Part shown: one piece after another, positions 53,231-63,702 of the stretch
Layout: each line of letters starts with the position of its first letter
Numbering within the stretch: position 1 is the first letter of the stretch
Assembly: GCA_004565275.1 (NCBI GenBank)
Contig: SDOX01000002.1
Coordinates: forward strand, 1,062,884-1,126,883
Source: Nannochloropsis salina CCMP1776
Lineage: Eukaryota > Sar > Eustigmatophyceae > Eustigmatales > Monodopsidaceae
Direction: 5' to 3'
DNA: 64,000 bases
Program-made: the position numbers and the translations under genes
Notes under the pieces: generated by a model
What the model was told of the DNA's origin: nothing
Databases searched by the model: none
The model's input: the letters and a program-made list of their open reading frames with translations, nothing else

Positions 53231-55623
53231 ATGGTTGTATCCCAAGAAGTAACCAGACGCCGGCGTCGACCACATTGGGGTGGTTTTGTATTTGTGCTAG
53301 GAATGACAGCTTCAGTGGCCACGGCATGGCAACCTTTATCCATGACAAAATCACAAGGCCTGCACGCCATGTCATGCGGGCCCCTGTCCGCTTCATCCTT
53401 CACAGGTGCGTTTTGCCACTGCGAACACTGTATCGTTTTGTCTTGTCCTTGACACATTGCGCTGTTAGACGTTACAGAAAGTGTACGTTTGCGGGTGGAA
53501 ATTCAAGCATTTTTTCACTTTGTAAATCTCTTTTTTTTGTTTTGGCACCCCGTTATCCGGATGGCAACCTCAATTTGCAGGTGTACGACACCAAAGCGCC
53601 TTTCCATCGACAAGCACAGCCATCTTGCCGATGAGGAAGCAATATTCACGGTCTTGCGCCCTCAATATGCACATCGGGCCTCACGGCCATGGCCACGAAC
53701 CTCCTCACCAGCACCCCGACGGCCATCCCCCTTTGGCGCACATGACGGGCGTGAGAGGCTTTGTCCTGTACATCATCTCCGTCTTGAAACAAAAAAAACA
53801 GACGATCGCAGGCGTCTTGTTGGGCGCCGTGGCGGTGGTGGCGGTCAGGTCCTACCAAGGTGTCCGCCGGTTCTCGGGGGCAGACGTAGGCATGCTGGGG
53901 TTGATCGCAACCTTCGTGCTTGCCGTGGAAAGCACCAAGTCCTATCTGAACACACTCAGAGAAAACATCGCCCAGATCGCCGCCGCCTGGCGCGCGCACC
54001 GCTCCCTGCGCTTGCTGCACAGTGAACGGCCGCTGGCCACAGGTGGCCCCGCTGTCTCCCAATTGGCAGCCGGGGCGGCGGAAAGCGACCGGGTCACCTG
54101 GCTGGGGATATACGCAAACCTGGGCCTGTTCGCCATCAAGGCCACGGCGGGTGTGCTAGGTAGGTCGGCCGCCATGGTTGCGGACGCCGGCCACACCCTC
54201 TCCGACCTGGTCTCGGACATGGTCACCTTGTGGGCAGTCCGGATGAGCGCCCTGCCCCCCGACGACGACCATCCCTACGGCCACGGCCGCTTTGAAGCCG
54301 TCGGTTCCCTGGGTGTGTCCGCCTTGCTCCTGCTCACCGCCTGGCATATCGCTGCGCACGCCTATGATAAGCTTCAGTGCACCCTGGCCCTCCCCTCCCT
54401 CGGGCCTTTGCCCTTCTCAGCCTTCTCCCTCTCGGCACTCCGAAGCAGCGTGCCCTGGATGCAAGGATTGCTTGCACGCGGGGGACACATGGCTGCGAGC
54501 GTGGGAGCGTCCTGCGAGGCTGCGCCTTCGGCCCTGGCGGTGGTGGCGGCCACGGCCTCCATCGTGGTCAAAGAGCTTCTGTATCAGATCACAGCCAGCG
54601 TGGGCATCAAGCACAACAGTCAGGTGGTTCTTGCCAATGCCTGGCACCACCGATCGGACGCGATTTCCTCCGTCATGGCACTGGGTGGGATCGTGGCCGC
54701 TCGGGCGGGATTGGCAGCCTTGGACCCCATTGCCGGTGAGGCGGGTTGGGCATTTGAAGACGGGGTTCTGTAGGGCGGCGGGATTGTCTCTTTCTTGCAT
54801 GGCATACATATGGGCATATATATATCGGTGACAGGGCCATGATTTGTGCGTCACAACATTTTTTTTTGCATGCTTTAATGTGTTATCTTTGCTCTTCTTC
54901 TTCCCCTTGCGTTGCCTGGGACCTCCCGCCTCCTAACCCTGTCCCCGTCCGACTGCGCCCTTTCTTGCAGGCATTCTCGTCACCGCCATGATTGGGCTCA
55001 CGGGGATGCAGATCTTCCTGGACAGCATGAACCAACTCACCGACACTGTGGAGAGCGACGCCATTCCCGGCATTCGCCGGGTGGCGGCGTCAGTGGAGGG
55101 AGTCCGCGACACGTCGGACGTCCGGGCCCGTCGGATGGGCCCGCAGCTCCTTGTCGACCTGCGCATCCTGGTCGACAGCCAGATTTCCGCCTCGGCAGCG
55201 CAACAGGTTGCCGATCAAGTCCGCTGGCGGGTGCGGCGAGACTTTCCCAACGTGTCAGAGGTACTCGTCCACACGGTCACTGAGCCCTTGCCCTGTCCTT
55301 TAGCGATGGAGCTTCGTCAGCCCTCCGACATCGAAGCTGACGTCCGGGCTGTCTTGGGCCCAGGTTGGGCCCAACAGGAGCCTTTGGTGCTGGCGGTTAG
55401 GAAAGTGATGGTGCACTATGTGTCCATGGCGCCGACCGTGGACGTCTTGTTGCAGATCGATCCGGACTTGAGCGTGCGAGAGGCGGGGGAGGTCGCTCGA
55501 AGGGTGCAGAAATTGCTGGAAGGCATCAAAGACGTGACCAAGGCCGAGGTTCACTTGGATCTGACAAGCACTGGCTCCCCCGCGACTGCAGTGCTGCACT
55601 CTCCGTCTCCAACGGGGGGTTGA
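53231..55623 (+). CDS. Cation diffusion facilitator (CDF/ZnT) metal transporter, 3 exons
   Basis: Exons 53231-53405, 53581-54735 and 54971-55623 (introns 175 and 235 nt, GT-AG) give 660 aa. Residues 15-36 are a hydrophobic leader (FVFVLGMTASVATAW), so plastid or endomembrane delivery is possible. A His-rich stretch (HIGPHGHGHEPPHQHPDGH) precedes the membrane part. Transport-site motifs are present: DAGHTLSDLVSD in helix 2 and NAWHHRSDAIS in helix 5. Loops YGHGRFE and SVGIKHNS and the glycines GGIVAARAG are typical. Exon 3 starts with helix 6 (ILVTAMIGLTGMQIF) and continues with the cytosolic domain (SVEGVRDTSDVRARRMGPQLLVDLRILVD, FPNVSEVLVHTVTEP). The C-terminus has a second, partial repeat of that fold (VDVLLQIDPDLSVREAGEVARRV). 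H/D pattern suggests zinc. Confidence 0.9.
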
Positions 55624-55995: not shown

Positions 55996-58900
55996 CTACG
56001 TGCTCCTCCCTTCTCCCACTTCCTCTTCCCACGACCGTGGATCGTCCATGTATCGGTGAATAAGCTCTGTGAGCCTCCGAACATGTTGAAGGGAGGCTGC
56101 GCCCTTCAAGAGCTGTGCGTGGAGGGACAAGGTCAGTGCTGGGACCAAGACCACGTCACGATGCCGCTGCAGATGGTCGCGTGATTCACTTCCAACCTTT
56201 GGGACGTTCCTGATGGCTCCAATCGTCAAAACCAAGGGAGTCAGGAAGGATGCGCTCGGAGTGGGCGCGGGGAACACTTCAAAGTCGGCTTCGCATGTAG
56301 ACTCCCTGCTCGACGTAATCGCTGGAGATGTCAAAATGACGCATTCGCCTTGGGGAAACGCCCGCACACCCAACCAAGACAGGCTTAGCCCCAACCCCGC
56401 TCCTAAAAAAGTGAAACAGGCGTCAAGGGAAGAGGAGAGGATGCTCGGACACCACCGCATGATCAGCAGGCGTCGGTTGTAATGCACATCGCGGCCGCTG
56501 TTCAGCGCATTAGTCTTGAGAGAAAGCGCACGGGAGATCTCCACGACGGATTTCTGATCCACATCCCGGACTTTCAACAGGGCAAATGTCCCGTCCCGCA
56601 AGCGAAGCTCGCACGACACATTGGCGGTGGGAGCAGGCAGGAACCTTCCGAGCACTTGATGCCCGTTCAATTCAGGGACCTGGCGCAAAGCCAAGGCAAC
56701 CGCACGCATGGCAACGTGTAGGACCGTGATCCCCGGTCCCCCCGTATCTCGGTGTTGCGCGTCGATGTACCGTTTTAATCTCCGGATCTCTACGTGAAAA
56801 CGGACGTGCACCCGTTGTTTAATCCCGTCGTGGCCCCATTCGGTCAAACGGGGGGCGACGCGCCCATCCCCCCCTCCTAGCACGCGACCCGCCCCCAAGG
56901 CGTGTAGGCTCATCAGGTAACGAACTACCAGGACGACACCGGCCACGAAGCCAAGGCCTCGATAAGGCTTGATCCCTTCGGCCAAGCCTTCCCATGCACC
57001 CAAGCCCCACAGGGGGCCAAGCAGAGGGAGAAAGGTTGTACTGTTGACAAGGTGGTAGCAAACCACTGGGAGCAGCAAGAGAGCAATTTGCCATGTGGGA
57101 CTCATGCCTACCAGGCTCCATTCGCGGGAAGACTGCAACAAAGGGATCTGCGGGAATTTCCCGTCCACTTGCGTAGAGCCCCCAGACCGCGCGGGGGCGG
57201 GTCTTTCTGCCGTGTCCACCAAGGTTGTTGGTGTGGTGCCTCGGAAAATGATGGAAGGGGATCCATTCATACGCCTAGCTAGGCTGCTCGACACTCTTCC
57301 AGACTTGGGACTGGCGCAGGGGGTGATGTATCCACCGGTACTGTTGCCGTGTCGTTCCCCGACTCCAAAAGCCGAGTCTCGGTAGGGAGTAGGGGGTTGC
57401 CTGGTCGATGCAGGAGACGAGGGAACGCTCGGTGCCACGCCTCGTAGCTCTTCCTCATCTTCCTCCTCCTCTCCTTCTTTTCTCTCCGCGTGCATGCTAC
57501 TGGTGGGCGTGCCCGTGGGACCCAGTCCCTGGACGGACGACTCGCGACGCAATTTCGACGAAGCCACATGCCCCACGGCGTTCCCTCGATGGCGCGGGGG
57601 CCGTGCATGCGCTTGCCCAGACAAAGCAGTATTGGTGGAACGGGCAAGAGTGGCGGGTACTCTCGAGTGGACGATGGATTGCTGCTCAAGAGGGGTCATG
57701 GCATGGAAATGGAAAGGTTCCGGGGAGGGCGCAAGCGTGTATCGAGGTTTGTCGAGTCCCTGCAGAGGTGGGACGGGGGGCGCTGAATTGGCCCGTATCA
57801 ACGCCGGTCTTGCTGAGGCCGAAGCCGCCGCTTTCCCTCCTACCGGCACATAGGACTTGCCAACCGACGCGCTAGGTCCGTACGAGGAGGGTGGCCGACA
57901 CCCCCGCGCGGCGGCAGTGATCTTTTCCTCGGTGGCCGTGGGGAAAATGTGCATGCGATCCGGGATCAGGGTGGGGCTCCACCGGTTCCAAGTAAGGACA
58001 AGGGGTTCCAAGGCCGCATTGGAGATTTCGACACGGCCCAGGTCGGACCATCCGTCTTCCGCGCCCCCCGACCTGGCCCTCTCTCCGTCCCTGGCACGCC
58101 CGCTATTCCCTCCTTGCTTTCCCCCCCCTCCGCTCGCCCTCAGATATTCGTCCAAAAACTTACGAATGGAAGGGATGACAGAGGCCTGCTTATCTGTCAG
58201 TTCTTTTCGGACCGCCTTGGTCATGATCCCCTGGATGTCCAGCGTGAACAAGCAAAACATGCGCGTGGCCCTGCCCCCCTCGATGGCATCCAGTACCCAC
58301 TGCTCTTGTTGGTGCGCTCGGATGTAACCTTCCTCCTCGGGGTGGGAGGGGTCGTCCACCGCCACCACCACGATGCGCCCTTCCACGTCCTCCACGACCC
58401 GCCAATGCACCAACTGACACAAATCGCGCGTGGGCATGGGGAACATGGCCTTCAAACGCTGATACGTCACCCAGGTGTGTACGTTGTAGAGGACGTCGTG
58501 CGTGGAAAATTCCGCCGCGCTGCACCAAATGTTCACAATGTCCAACGTGGTCAACGCCTTCAAAACAGCCGCGGGCGGGTGTCGGATCACCCCCTCCGAG
58601 CATACCTGCAATACGCTCACATCCGTGGCATCCGTCTCATTCAAATAGGACCAATCCTTGGCATTTTCGCCCGCCCCGCCCTCGGCGTTCCGTTCATCAA
58701 ACACTTCCCACCCCTCCTCACCCACGGCAACCCCGTTCCCGTCCTCCCCTGGATCGCGACCACTTCCCTCCCCGTTACCCAGCGCAGCGCCCATGGACCT
58801 GCTCCGACGTCGGCCATCCACAAAGGGAAATAAGGCTTCCTTCTCAAGCGCGGCGCACACCGCATCCTCCACTTGGGCGGCAATGTGCGGCGCCAGGCTG

Positions 58901-61201
58901 CTTTGAACCTCCTTCATGGTCAAAGGCCGTTGGTGCGTGGCTTTTCGCGGGGGGGTCGTCACGTTCCGAAGGCCCTTGCCGCCCGCTCGACCCAGCGCCC
59001 GACCTGCGGAAGGGAAAGGAGCACTGCCCCGAGCCAATGCGAGGGACGCGCGCGTCTGGCTTTGAGTGCTGGTGCTGGACATGGCATCCAGTGCCAACAG
59101 GCGTCGGTTCAAATTATCCATCGCCGGTGCCACTTGCTGGTTGCTGTATATAGGGAGGTGGAAGGCATTGTCCAGGCGGGTCGCTCCCTTGGGAACCCCC
59201 CCACTTGCGCCCAACCCCCCTCCATGCACCCCCACATTGCCAGACTCCCGTCGAGAAAGCAGGGACGCCGCAAGGGTAGACGAAGGCTGCTGCTCGGCCA
59301 AAAATTTGCGCAAAGAGGCGATAATCAGAGGTTGTCCCTCCGAGACCATGTTCGAGACGGAATGCGGGAGGTTTCCTTTCAAATCCGTCTGCAATAAAAA
59401 GCTCACGTGGGATTCCCGGGGCAAAGGCAGGCAGGGGTCGTAGATCTCCGCCCCGTCCTCGCTTGAGGAGGGGCGAAGGGCGCCGGAGTCCGCCGATGTG
59501 ACGGGCCGGATCACCCATCCCGCCAACAAGCACTCAGCACGCACACATCCAGCTTCCTCAGGATGCCGATCCTCGTCCCCCACCGCCACCACCACGATCG
59601 TCCCGTCGTCCTCCAGGACCTGCCAGTGCACCACGTTGTACATGTCCCGGGCCGAGGTGGGCCAGACGGCTTGGTAGTGGTGGTAGTCCAACCAGGTGTG
59701 CGCGTTGTAGATTTTCATCCGGCGGCCAAAGCCAAAATGCGCGTCGTAGGCCTGGCGCAGACTCAGGTCCATGATGGTCAAGAGCACTGTGACCGGGTGC
59801 ACAGGGATGCGTCCCTCCCCTCGAAAGGAGGCGACGGGACCCGGCTGTCGAAGCACGCGCACGCCCGACCGAGTGCCCACCTCCTCCCAACCCTCTTCCT
59901 GACCCGCCCCCGTGTTCGCCAACAGGGCTCGCATGCCTTCTTGGACCTTCTCCCTCAATTCTGGAGGTATCAGAGACAGGTTTCCCACCGGGGCACTCGC
60001 ATCTGCCCCCGCCGCCCGCCTGCGGGCCGACACAAGCGACCGCCCACCGCCCTCCCCCCCCTCAATCCCTCCCGTCCCTCCACCGGTGCCGTCCCGGGCA
60101 ATTGACCCCTCAAGATTCAGCCCATGCTCGCTGGATGAATGCAGCGAACCACGCTGCTGCTGCTGCTGCTGCTGCCACAAGCGTGTTTCCACAGACGGTT
60201 TTCGGCGCAAAGACACACGCCGTGGCCCCGCCGCCGCCATCTTCAAGGCATGTACCCACTCCTCCATCTCCCCCTGACTGGCAGCAGCCAGATGGTAGGC
60301 TTGGTTGCTATCCGGGTGGGTAATGGCGAAGGGGAAAAGCGGGATGCTTCGCCCTGTTCCTTCCTGCTTGGCTGTGGGCTCTTGCCCGTCCTGGAAGGGT
60401 TGGACGCGACATCCGTCCAAAATGAGCGTGCTTCGGGCCGTAGGGTCGTCCGCTTGCAGGTAGTACTTGAGCACTTTGCCTTGCAAGACAAAAAATCGCG
60501 GCCTCCAGCCTTTGAAGATGTCGCGCTGTTTGTACAGGACCCCTGTCCTGACGAGGGTTTCCTGGGAGGAAGAGAGACCGTCGCTGGAGTACAAGGCGGC
60601 GTTGCCCCCACTTGAGTCCATAAGGGCGGCGCCACCCGTGGCCAGCTCTTCTTCGATCAGGTCCATTTGATCGATGTAGGCGACCATGGCCTGCTCCCGT
60701 GTCATTCCATGCTTCTTTTTCCAAGCCATCCATTTCAAACGTTCGTCCCCCTGACTGGCGTTCGAACTGGGAGGGGCCTTGCTCGCCCGGCAATCTCCGG
60801 CAGTGGCCTGCATCAAGATGCCATAGAGAGCCACGCTTCTGTTGCTGCTAAGTTGGCCTGTAGGGGTTGGTGTGGAGGGCCCAACGGAGACGAGAGCGTG
60901 GGAGGAGGAAAGCGCGCGAGGAGGGGAGCAAGGTATATGACATGACCGACACGAAAGGGAATGACCCCCCTGTCCTCCATGATCCCTCCCGCACATGCAT
61001 GCATGCAATGCACCCCACGGGATCCATTGCCGAGATAAGGGTTGATGGGAGACATGTGTTTCCCCCCCCCCCTCCACCCCACCTCACCAATCGCCCCCCT
61101 GCCCACGTACCACCCCGCTCCAACTCCTGGGCCCGCAGTACCGCCAATTGAAAGTTGCTCGAGACGGCGGACAGCCGAGCTGAGCGGTCTGAGTCAGTCA
61201 T
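55996..61201 (-). CDS. ACB-PH-START-START-acyltransferase-fold lipid protein
   Basis: Exons 61201-61111 and 60857-55996 (253-nt intron) give 1650 aa. The acyl-CoA-binding domain (about 10-95) is split by the intron: FQLAVLRAQELERG|GQLSSNRSVALYGILMQATAGDC and KWMAWKKKHGMTREQAM. PH domain, about 132-240 (GVLYKQRDIFKGWRPRFFVLQGKVLKYY ... MEEWVHALKMA). First START, about 330-552 (YNAHTWLDYHHYQAVWPTSARDM, VSFLLQTDLKGNLP). Second START, about 765-940 (NIWCSAAEF, VHTWVTYQRLKAMFPMPTRDLC, FCLFTLDIQGIMTKAVRKEL). Two membrane segments near 1287 and 1338, and a third inside the C-terminal domain. From about 1378 a domain of the 2-oxoacid dehydrogenase E2/CAT fold: VEIRRLKRYI, LHVAMRAVALALRQVPELNG, FALLKVRDVDQKSVVEISRAL, with LHAQLLKGAASLQHVRRL where E2 has DHRxxDGA. 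The catalytic His/Asp motif is thus lost. A (CTG)n/(CAG)n run at about 60151-60176 codes a poly-Gln. Likely a lipid-binding membrane-contact protein; substrate unknown. Confidence 0.85.
60151..60176. repeat. CTG/CAG microsatellite coding poly-Gln
   Basis: Eight or so CTG triplets (+ strand) lie within the ACB/START gene and read as a Gln run on the minus strand between the PH and first START domain. Confidence 0.85.
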
Positions 61202-62028: not shown

Positions 62029-63702
62029 TCACGTTGAGTTCTGCCAAGAAGCAAAGGGCCAACGGGCATGCACATCCCGCCCTTCCACGACATCCGAGTA
62101 ACCCAATCGGAGCTTTTCTATTGCCGCCCAAGCTACCATCACACCGTTGTCTGTGCACAACCGGGGGGGGGGCACTACTAGCTCCCAGTGCGGGAGGGGG
62201 GCTTCCACCTCCATGGTCCCACCACCTTTGTTCTCGCTGCTTGCCTCATCCCATATTCTTTCCTGTTCCTTTTCCAGCCTCCTGGCCAAGCTTCTTTTCT
62301 CACACAAAACCTGCAGGCGGGCCCGGATCGCCTGATTGGATGCCACCCCACCCACCACAGCCAAAGTGTGGACCCCGCGGCTCTCACTCTCCTTCATGGC
62401 CAGGGTCAACCGCTCCTCCAAATGCTGGATCGCCACGTGCTGGAACGAAGCGGCCAAATCTGCTTTTGTCTTGGGGTCGAAGTCCTCCTCCTCCCCCAGA
62501 TTTAGCGCCTCTTTCAGGCGTGTCACCGCCATCCGAAACGCGTTCTTTAACCCGGCGTAGGAAAAATTCAAATTCTTCTTCCCCCGCATCGGGACGGGCA
62601 GCACTACCGCCGTGGGATCTCCTTCTCGGGCGAGTCTTTCCATGGCCGGACCCCCCGCGGCGCCCGTTCCGATCTTCAAAAGGCGGGCTGCCTTGTCGTA
62701 GGCCTCGCCCAGGGCGTCATCCAGGGTCCCGCCCAAGGTGCGATAGCGACCCACCCCCCAACATTCCAGAAGCATGCAGTGGCCTCCCGACACAAGGAGG
62801 GCCAGAAAAGGGAAGCGGGCTTGTGGGGGGATGGGGGACGATGCACTGGTCCCGGTAGCCTCCTCCTTGGGTTCCCGTGAATCGAGAGGTTGCCCGAAGC
62901 GTGCCATCAGACAATGCGCTTCCAAGTGGTGTACAGCCACGAAAGGTTTGTGGAAGGTCGTCGCCAAGGCTTTGGCGGTCTCGGTGCCAACCCTCAGGCA
63001 AATTTCCAGGCCCGGTCCTACCGTTACCCCGACCGCACCGACCTCCGCCACGGAAGCCATCCCGGCCTTCTTTAGCGCCTCCTCGACCATGCTGTCGATG
63101 ACCGAGGCATGGGCATCCCGCGCCAAGCCTGGCACCACCCCGCCCCATTGCTCATGGATTTTGTATTGCGAAGCCAGTGCCTCCCCCAAAATGACCCCGT
63201 CGGAACGGACGACAGCCACGCCCGTGTCGTCGCAACTGGTTTCGATCCCAAGCACCGTGAATACAGGATCTTCCGGGCTGGTTGTGGGTAATCCCGAGGC
63301 GGCTTGGACAAAATTGTCCGCGGAGAAGGATGGGTATTGCCCCGTGTCGGTGCCTTTGGCCATCCCTACGAAGTCTCGGGAGGCTTTGGAGGCCCCGGAC
63401 CCAGCGGGGCGTCGACGTCGGCGGGTACTAGAGGTGACGGAAGCAGGGGCTTGGCTTGTCCCTGTAGACGTTTGTCCGTCAGGGTTACCAGCTGAATGAG
63501 TAGTGGGATCCATGCCCGCCTTGGCAGCCGTAGGAGTGGTAGGAAAGAAAGCTTTGCGGGTCAGTGACCATGATATCCTCTTGGTGCTTGCCTCCATCCA
63601 GCCAAGCCCAGGCCGTGCCAGCTGAAATGCTGAGATTCGCGATAACATGATGACATAGACGGCCTTCAGGGCTTTTTTCCATCTAACGGTCAGTACGAGC
63701 AT
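62029..63702 (-). CDS. TSAD: Organellar TsaD/OSGEPL1 (tRNA threonylcarbamoyltransferase)
   Basis: Single exon, 557 aa, ATG at 63702. Transfers the threonylcarbamoyl group to A37 of ANN-decoding tRNAs (t6A). A 130-residue N-terminal extension, basic and Ser/Thr-rich with a short hydrophobic start (VIMLSRISAFQLA), suggests mitochondrial or plastid import. The core begins FTVLGIETSCDDTGVAVV, the family start, then VPGLARDAHAS, VGVTVGPGLEICLRVG, the metal-binding HxExH as HHLEAH, LVSGGHCMLLE, GGTLDDALGEAYDKAARLL, GGPAMERLA, NLNFSYAGLKNA, AVVGGVASNQAIR, and PPRLCTDNGVMVAWAA with the conserved DN. The last 30 residues are a Trp-containing tail. Bacterial-type rather than Kae1-type, fitting an organellar enzyme. 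Confidence 0.93.
   Translation of the reverse strand: MLVLTVRWKKALKAVYVIMLSRISAFQLARPGLGWMEASTKRISWSLTRKAFFPTTPTAAKAGMDPTTHSAGNPDGQTSTGTSQAPASVTSSTRRRRRPAGSGASKASRDFVGMAKGTDTGQYPSFSADNFVQAASGLPTTSPEDPVFTVLGIETSCDDTGVAVVRSDGVILGEALASQYKIHEQWGGVVPGLARDAHASVIDSMVEEALKKAGMASVAEVGAVGVTVGPGLEICLRVGTETAKALATTFHKPFVAVHHLEAHCLMARFGQPLDSREPKEEATGTSASSPIPPQARFPFLALLVSGGHCMLLECWGVGRYRTLGGTLDDALGEAYDKAARLLKIGTGAAGGPAMERLAREGDPTAVVLPVPMRGKKNLNFSYAGLKNAFRMAVTRLKEALNLGEEEDFDPKTKADLAASFQHVAIQHLEERLTLAMKESESRGVHTLAVVGGVASNQAIRARLQVLCEKRSLARRLEKEQERIWDEASSENKGGGTMEVEAPLPHWELVVPPPRLCTDNGVMVAWAAIEKLRLGYSDVVEGRDVHARWPFASWQNST

Follow-up and report, generated by a model that had tools for sequence, protein, structure and literature searches.

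What does an algal gene do when it joins an acyl-CoA-binding (ACB) domain, a PH domain, two START domains, a membrane anchor and the fold of a 2-oxoacid dehydrogenase acyltransferase (E2) in a single chain? The question arises from a 64,000-nucleotide stretch of the Nannochloropsis salina CCMP1776 genome (contig SDOX01000002.1, forward-strand positions 1,062,884 to 1,126,883; hereafter the window), whose minus strand carries such a gene. By profile searches, structure prediction and comparison with homologues, we found that the gene encodes one large protein with these domains in the order given, and that the catalytic motif of its C-terminal E2/CAT domain is lost. We give an even chance to its being a membrane-anchored multi-domain lipid-transfer protein with a pseudo-acyltransferase tail.

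Gene model and domain architecture

The gene lies on a minus-strand frame (61083-55996) of 1695 codons without a stop; under independent codons and local base composition, the chance of an open run of this length is about 2e-24. Joining a predicted first exon (donor GTACGT) to the remainder of the frame (acceptor CTACAG) yields a product of 1650 residues, here called the window protein. With exon 1 included, the ACBP match rose from 46.2 to 56.6 bits and began at profile position 3 instead of 19, in support of an intron that interrupts the ACB domain. An original prediction, made from the letters of the window, had proposed a 1650-residue product whose first intron splits the ACB domain, and the predicted spliced model reproduced both the length and the splice. 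The domain list, domain order and membrane segments of that prediction also proved right by Pfam profile search and hydropathy.

Pfam returned five domain matches from four families. The ACB match covers positions 3-75 of the 76 in PF00887 and stands above the family cut-off. START domain 2 (START2) is matched only over residues 814-916 (profile 80-184), and aligns over its length with START domain 1 (START1) in four homologous proteins. The weakest matches were START2 and 2-oxoacid_dh, the latter scoring 27.2 bits in the C-terminal piece (cut-off 23; profile 45-132 of 232), 26.1 in a longer C-terminal piece, 24.7 in the genome scan and 22.2, below cut-off, in the whole chain. Acidic and Ser/Pro-rich stretches occupy the long, less conserved linkers.

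Protein database searches, each scoring the roughly 8000 candidates with most words in common with the query, identified 11 distinct homologous proteins (P0001-P0011), whose divergence suggests that they come from other species. In P0001 (96% identical) and P0002 (56%), a single frame runs from ACB through PH, two START domains and hydrophobic segments to the CAT region, with the ACB domain cut off near the intron position. P0003, 41% identical over half the query, starts within the PH domain (17.0 bits, below cut-off), holds the rest, and has in its CAT region an additional stretch resembling an unspliced intron. The frame of P0011 (855 residues) includes matches to two START domains and the pair of hydrophobic segments and ends early in the CAT region; P0004-P0010 represent shorter parts of the C-terminal region. 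The complete ACB-to-CAT order is present in three proteins, the window protein included, and in part in P0003 and P0011. Because the domains present in P0001, P0002 and P0003 also share one open frame, the homologues argue against two separate genes. The 2-oxoacid_dh match recurred in P0001 (24.1 bits) and, below cut-off, in P0002 (17.2) and P0003 (12.1).

Identity to P0002 and P0003, respectively, was 68% and 51% for CAT, 70% and 60% for START1, 79% and 61% for START2, and 54% and 26% for the linker preceding CAT. The CAT domain is almost as conserved as the START domains, and more so than this linker, and seems constrained despite the loss of its motif.

Table 1. Features of the gene encoding the window protein (positions within the window)
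Feature	Position	Strand	Residues and remarks
Exon 1	61111..61201	minus	start codon and first part of ACB domain; spliced model, donor GTACGT
Intron 1	60858..61110	minus	GT...AG, 253 nucleotides, interrupts ACB domain; predicted
Exon 2	55996..60857	minus	remaining coding sequence including stop codon; inside 1695-codon frame
Acyl-CoA-binding domain	60667..61156	minus	16-94, spans intron; PF00887 56.6 bits, cut-off 28.3
PH domain	60232..60552	minus	133-239; PF00169 51.2 bits, cut-off 25.1
START domain 1	59290..59919	minus	344-553; PF01852 51.1 bits, cut-off 22
START domain 2	58129..58902	minus	about 683-940; PF01852 22.9 bits, cut-off 22
Hydrophobic segment 1	57028..57114	minus	1279-1307; 19-residue mean hydropathy at least 1.6
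Hydrophobic segment 2	56890..56958	minus	1331-1353; YRG just before, invariant in four sequences
E2/CAT-fold domain (predicted)	56029..56844	minus	1369-1640
Degenerate DHRxxDG counterpart	56101..56127	minus	1608-1616, SLHAQLLKG; catalytic His and Asp absent

An E2/CAT fold without the catalytic motif

Structure prediction together with a profile assigned the C-terminal domain an E2/CAT fold, and this fold-level match was obtained from an alignment containing no E2 sequence. The AlphaFold model used (290 residues, 10 sequences) had a best pLDDT of 55.2 and a pTM of 0.52, with four other models at 38 to 43; a first model (434 residues, four sequences; pLDDT 40) played no part in the fold assignment. 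Searched alone against PDB by phmmer, the C-terminal piece of the window protein gave three weak matches at E up to 1, all to E2 (best 0.029), and NCBIfam returned matches to E2 models only, far below cut-off. The E2/CAT-like fold had been part of the original prediction, which named the lack of a structural match for about residues 1378-1640 as a finding that would count against it; an E2/CAT match is present there, and the fold is thus supported at modest model confidence.

Pfam matched neither a lipoyl nor an E3-binding domain in the window protein at E up to 1; both are found by Pfam in an E2 encoded in the same genome (L014, below). A reading as a true E2 component was rejected on the absent lipoyl match and the lost motif. 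Relatives of the CAT domain were also sought in prokaryote genome contigs and viral contigs, where none of 16 and 22 pattern matches, respectively, was confirmed, which, at this sensitivity, gives no indication of a donor among bacteria or viruses.

The active site of E2 carries the motif known as DHRxxDG. The catalytic residues of E2p are Ser566 and His620', at an interdomain site of the trimer, and its stabilising Asp is Asn614 in Azotobacter (PMC9681731, excerpt). Aligned with five E2 domains of its own genome, the window protein reads SLHAQLLKG in the motif region, and MAFFT and hhalign each place a gap opposite the Asp-His of the E2 motif. Nine family sequences span this segment, namely the window protein, P0001, P0002, P0003, P0004, P0005, P0007, P0008 and P0010 (P0006, P0009 and P0011 stop short of it and are outside the nine). 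The catalytic His and the motif Asp are absent from all nine. If the segment is read ungapped, the His place holds Ala, Val or Ile, and the Asp place Lys, Gln, Asn (in P0003), Gly or Arg. A His stands one position earlier in the window protein (residue 1610) and P0001, where the other seven have Met, Gln, Leu or Thr. The E2 TIS-N serine aligns to the Ala of the family's GAGLGL, although the alignment is uncertain there. Collectively, these data indicate an E2/CAT domain that is retained yet probably non-catalytic. Acyl transfer by the known E2 mechanism is improbable because the catalytic His is missing in 9/9 sequences, and the earlier proposal that the chain passes acyl groups is not supported for the same reason.

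Among the E2-type proteins of the same genome, three read DHRxxDG, one (L016) reads DHRHIYG, and L014 (G000:C42:449106-449807, minus strand), which has lipoyl and E3-binding domains, reads DRRVLDE. The best NCBIfam match of L014 was mitochondrial pyruvate dehydrogenase E2, slightly below cut-off (420.2 versus 445). L014 looks like an inactive E2 of the E3BP kind. The mammalian E3BP is a catalytically inactive E2 variant (PMC7494870, excerpt).

Lipid-binding domains and membrane segments

The best solved chain for the ACB domain was ACBD5 (3flv_A, E 1.4e-8), followed by 5h3g_A (1.6e-8). We take the CoA contacts of bovine ACBP to be Tyr28, Tyr31, Lys32, Lys54 and Tyr73; in alignments with two solved ACB domains, the places of Tyr28, Lys54 and Tyr73 are kept. 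The PH domain best matched KIAA0053, then PLEKHA3 and pleckstrin 2, with the CERT PH domain among the matches (E 0.0012). Against PDB profiles, the four best matches of START1 were all CERT (best E 4.1e-7), and those of START2 were STARD13 (E 0.0028) and STARD10 (E 0.0045). The CERT matches of START1, and CERT and PLEKHA3 among the PH matches, speak for a lipid-transfer protein.

The anchor was predicted by hydropathy only, at a 19-residue mean threshold of 1.6. Segment 1 has a counterpart in P0001, P0002, P0003 and P0011, and segment 2 exceeds the threshold in P0001, P0002 and P0011. At this threshold the spacing between the segments is 5 residues in P0011 versus 23 in the window protein. Pro, Tyr and YRG are invariant in the hydrophobic pair of 4/4 aligned sequences, one of them 96% identical to the window protein. 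In a hairpin with both flanks cytosolic, the CAT domain and the lipid domains would share one side of the membrane. A simple FFAT-like pattern, which leaves atypical and phospho-FFAT motifs outside it, matched 0/4 sequences, as fits a protein with its own anchor.

Relatives in the genome and neighbouring genes

A protein search of the N. salina genome (26.5 Mb, 103 contigs), with 8 candidates scored, found no second copy of the gene; apart from the gene's own locus, the matches were confined to a pair of START regions, at 36% and 32% identity. The START nearest to START1 in this genome (36%) belongs to L022:4769-7180 (G000:C47), where a PH match (38.6 bits) is followed downstream, in another frame, by START (28.4 bits) and then one hydrophobic segment. 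The three probably form one PH-START-transmembrane (TM) gene, which may show a simpler layout from which the window protein grew. Two further START proteins are encoded elsewhere. One is an EDR2-type PH-START-EDR2_C protein (L006:1-2769, G000:C15; EDR2_C 209 bits), separate from the window gene, and the other a 701-residue frame (L005:1336-3438, minus strand, G000:C35) with START (63 bits) near its end, after a long stretch of charged residues that seems helical on visual inspection.

Within the window, the plus strand carries at 53526-54773 a cation-efflux match and at 54937-55623 a frame with two stretches of ZT_dimer in place of the usual one; the two frames probably belong to one gene. Upstream of the window gene, a minus-strand frame (62029-63702) encodes a TsaD-family tRNA threonylcarbamoyltransferase (TIGR03723, 306.6 bits, cut-off 296.1), and the approximately 150 residues ahead of the match could hold an organelle presequence.

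Discussion

As a membrane-anchored lipid-transfer protein, the window protein would be held in one membrane, perhaps that of the endoplasmic reticulum (ER), by its hydrophobic pair, which would form a hairpin with both ends cytosolic. The PH domain would recognise a phosphoinositide of the facing membrane, and both START domains, tethered by long linkers, would ferry lipid across between the membranes. By binding or sensing acyl-CoA, the N-terminal ACB domain could tie this transfer to acyl-CoA supply. The PH domain, the two START domains and the anchor make action at a membrane contact site a reasonable expectation, given the analogous LAM family, whose member Ysp2 has an ER anchor together with GRAM and two START-like domains (PMC4463742, excerpt). 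The C-terminal pseudo-acyltransferase may have been kept as a trimer-forming assembly module, or as a module that binds CoA or a partner. An assembly role is proposed because lipid-transfer proteins are known to dimerise (PMC12377715, excerpt) and E2 domains assemble as trimers (PMC9681731, excerpt).

Several observations weigh against this model. Its proposed trimer, localisation and ligand binding are all predictions from sequence. The CAT model is modest (pLDDT 55, pTM 0.52), and its Foldseek superpositions are loose, with TM-scores by query of 0.38-0.45 and root-mean-square deviations of 7-14 A among 50 listed matches. START2 scores barely above its cut-off (22.9 versus 22). Sequence conservation is lowest in the TM region (36% identity to P0002, 21% to P0003); segment 2 of P0003 falls below threshold (1.3), and P0001 and P0002 show a further above-threshold stretch within the CAT region, so the topology is possibly less simple than a hairpin. 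The CERT contacts with ceramide are R442, E446, Q467, Y482, N504 and Y553 (PMC11228987, excerpt), and START1 keeps them only in part: R442 is conserved, E446 is replaced by Asp, Q467 by His/Leu and N504 by Ala, Y482 pairs with a Tyr beside a gap, and Y553 lies outside the aligned stretch. The cargo of START1 is therefore probably not ceramide. Finally, the ACB domain reads Leu-Met at the Tyr31-Lys32 place, as do P0001 and P0002, where the two solved ACB domains have Tyr-Lys. Of the acyl-CoA pick-up or sensing envisaged in the original prediction, an ACB match above cut-off stands, and the contact pair is replaced; acyl-CoA binding by this domain is plausible, not assured.

Taken as a whole, the layout is best read as a combination of CERT and the yeast LAM proteins, extended by an acyl-CoA-binding head and by a pseudo-acyltransferase tail; the parts all belong to known families. 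The resemblance to CERT lies in a PH domain followed by START and in the profile matches of both, whereas the window protein adds ACB in front and a second START, membrane segments and CAT behind, shows no FFAT-like motif by simple pattern, and does not keep Q467 and N504 of CERT. A CERT orthologue was rejected on these differing ligand residues and extra domains. Ysp2/Lam4 and human GRAMD1 likewise unite a PH-superfamily domain, START-type domains (two in Ysp2) and an anchor in one chain (PMC4463742, excerpt). Here, in contrast, the domains are PH and PF01852 START, not GRAM and START-like, and ACB and CAT are added; Pfam at E up to 1 matched neither GRAM nor VASt, in a search where HMMER filters drop most weak matches. 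Membership of the LAM family was rejected because the domain families differ. ACBD5 and ACBD4 share ACB plus a hydrophobic anchor, ACBD5 being also the best solved ACB match; to our knowledge, ACBD5 has no PH, START or CAT domain. The EDR2-type protein of the same genome has PH and START in one chain but ends in EDR2_C, without an ACB, second START or CAT match in its 923-residue piece. With the E2 catalytic domain and E3BP, the inactive E2 variant of mammals (PMC7494870, excerpt), the window protein shares the fold, and it differs in having no lipoyl or E3-binding match and in joining that fold to an anchor and lipid-binding domains.

A more specific version of the lipid-transfer model is tentative, and we regard it as rather unlikely: the E2 core fold, the basis of a multi-subunit scaffold in pyruvate dehydrogenase, would have moved, enzymatically dead, to lipid traffic, where it would gather three anchored ACB-PH-START-START chains into a fixed, acyl-CoA-responsive assembly for lipid transfer. 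We are equally doubtful that the protein is a lipid sensor rather than a carrier, in which ligands bound by START and ACB would change its conformation or its partners, and the PH domain and hydrophobic pair would keep it at one membrane. The long, less conserved acidic and Ser/Pro-rich linkers would suit regulation, and the genome encodes an EDR2-type protein, EDR2 itself being a regulator of cell death and defence (PMC4082322, excerpt); however, transfer proteins such as Ysp2 are built in this way, from a PH-type domain, two START-type domains and an anchor (PMC4463742, excerpt).

An active acyltransferase, in which the CAT fold would use an alternative active site to move acyl groups from ACB-held acyl-CoA to START-held lipid, is improbable. 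It would account for the conservation of CAT and for its family-specific residues, including His and Cys-Glu, that are invariant in three aligned sequences; the NGH and SCELR stretches hold candidate site residues, and the ungapped Asn of P0003 stands at the Asp place, where Azotobacter E2p also has Asn (PMC9681731, excerpt). Yet none of the nine sequences with the segment has the catalytic His, the TIS-N serine falls on Ala (in an uncertain part of the alignment), and Pfam matched no lipoyl domain. Least credible by far is a fusion of two genes in the open frame, by chance, assembly error or read-through, with CAT a separate part: the gene model is predicted from sequence and CAT scores weakly in Pfam, but START and CAT lie together in a single frame in each of P0001, P0002 and P0003, of which P0003 is 41% identical over the stretch that aligns.

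No title among the matches listed in the open-licence literature names the combination of ACB, PH, START and CAT, and no paper in open-licence PubMed Central brings together acyl-CoA binding, a START domain and Nannochloropsis. We also know of no description of a pseudo-E2 outside 2-oxoacid dehydrogenase complexes, which is what the window protein would be. Little is known of how acyl groups and lipids move between algal membranes, and this conserved five-domain protein offers a concrete target for that question.

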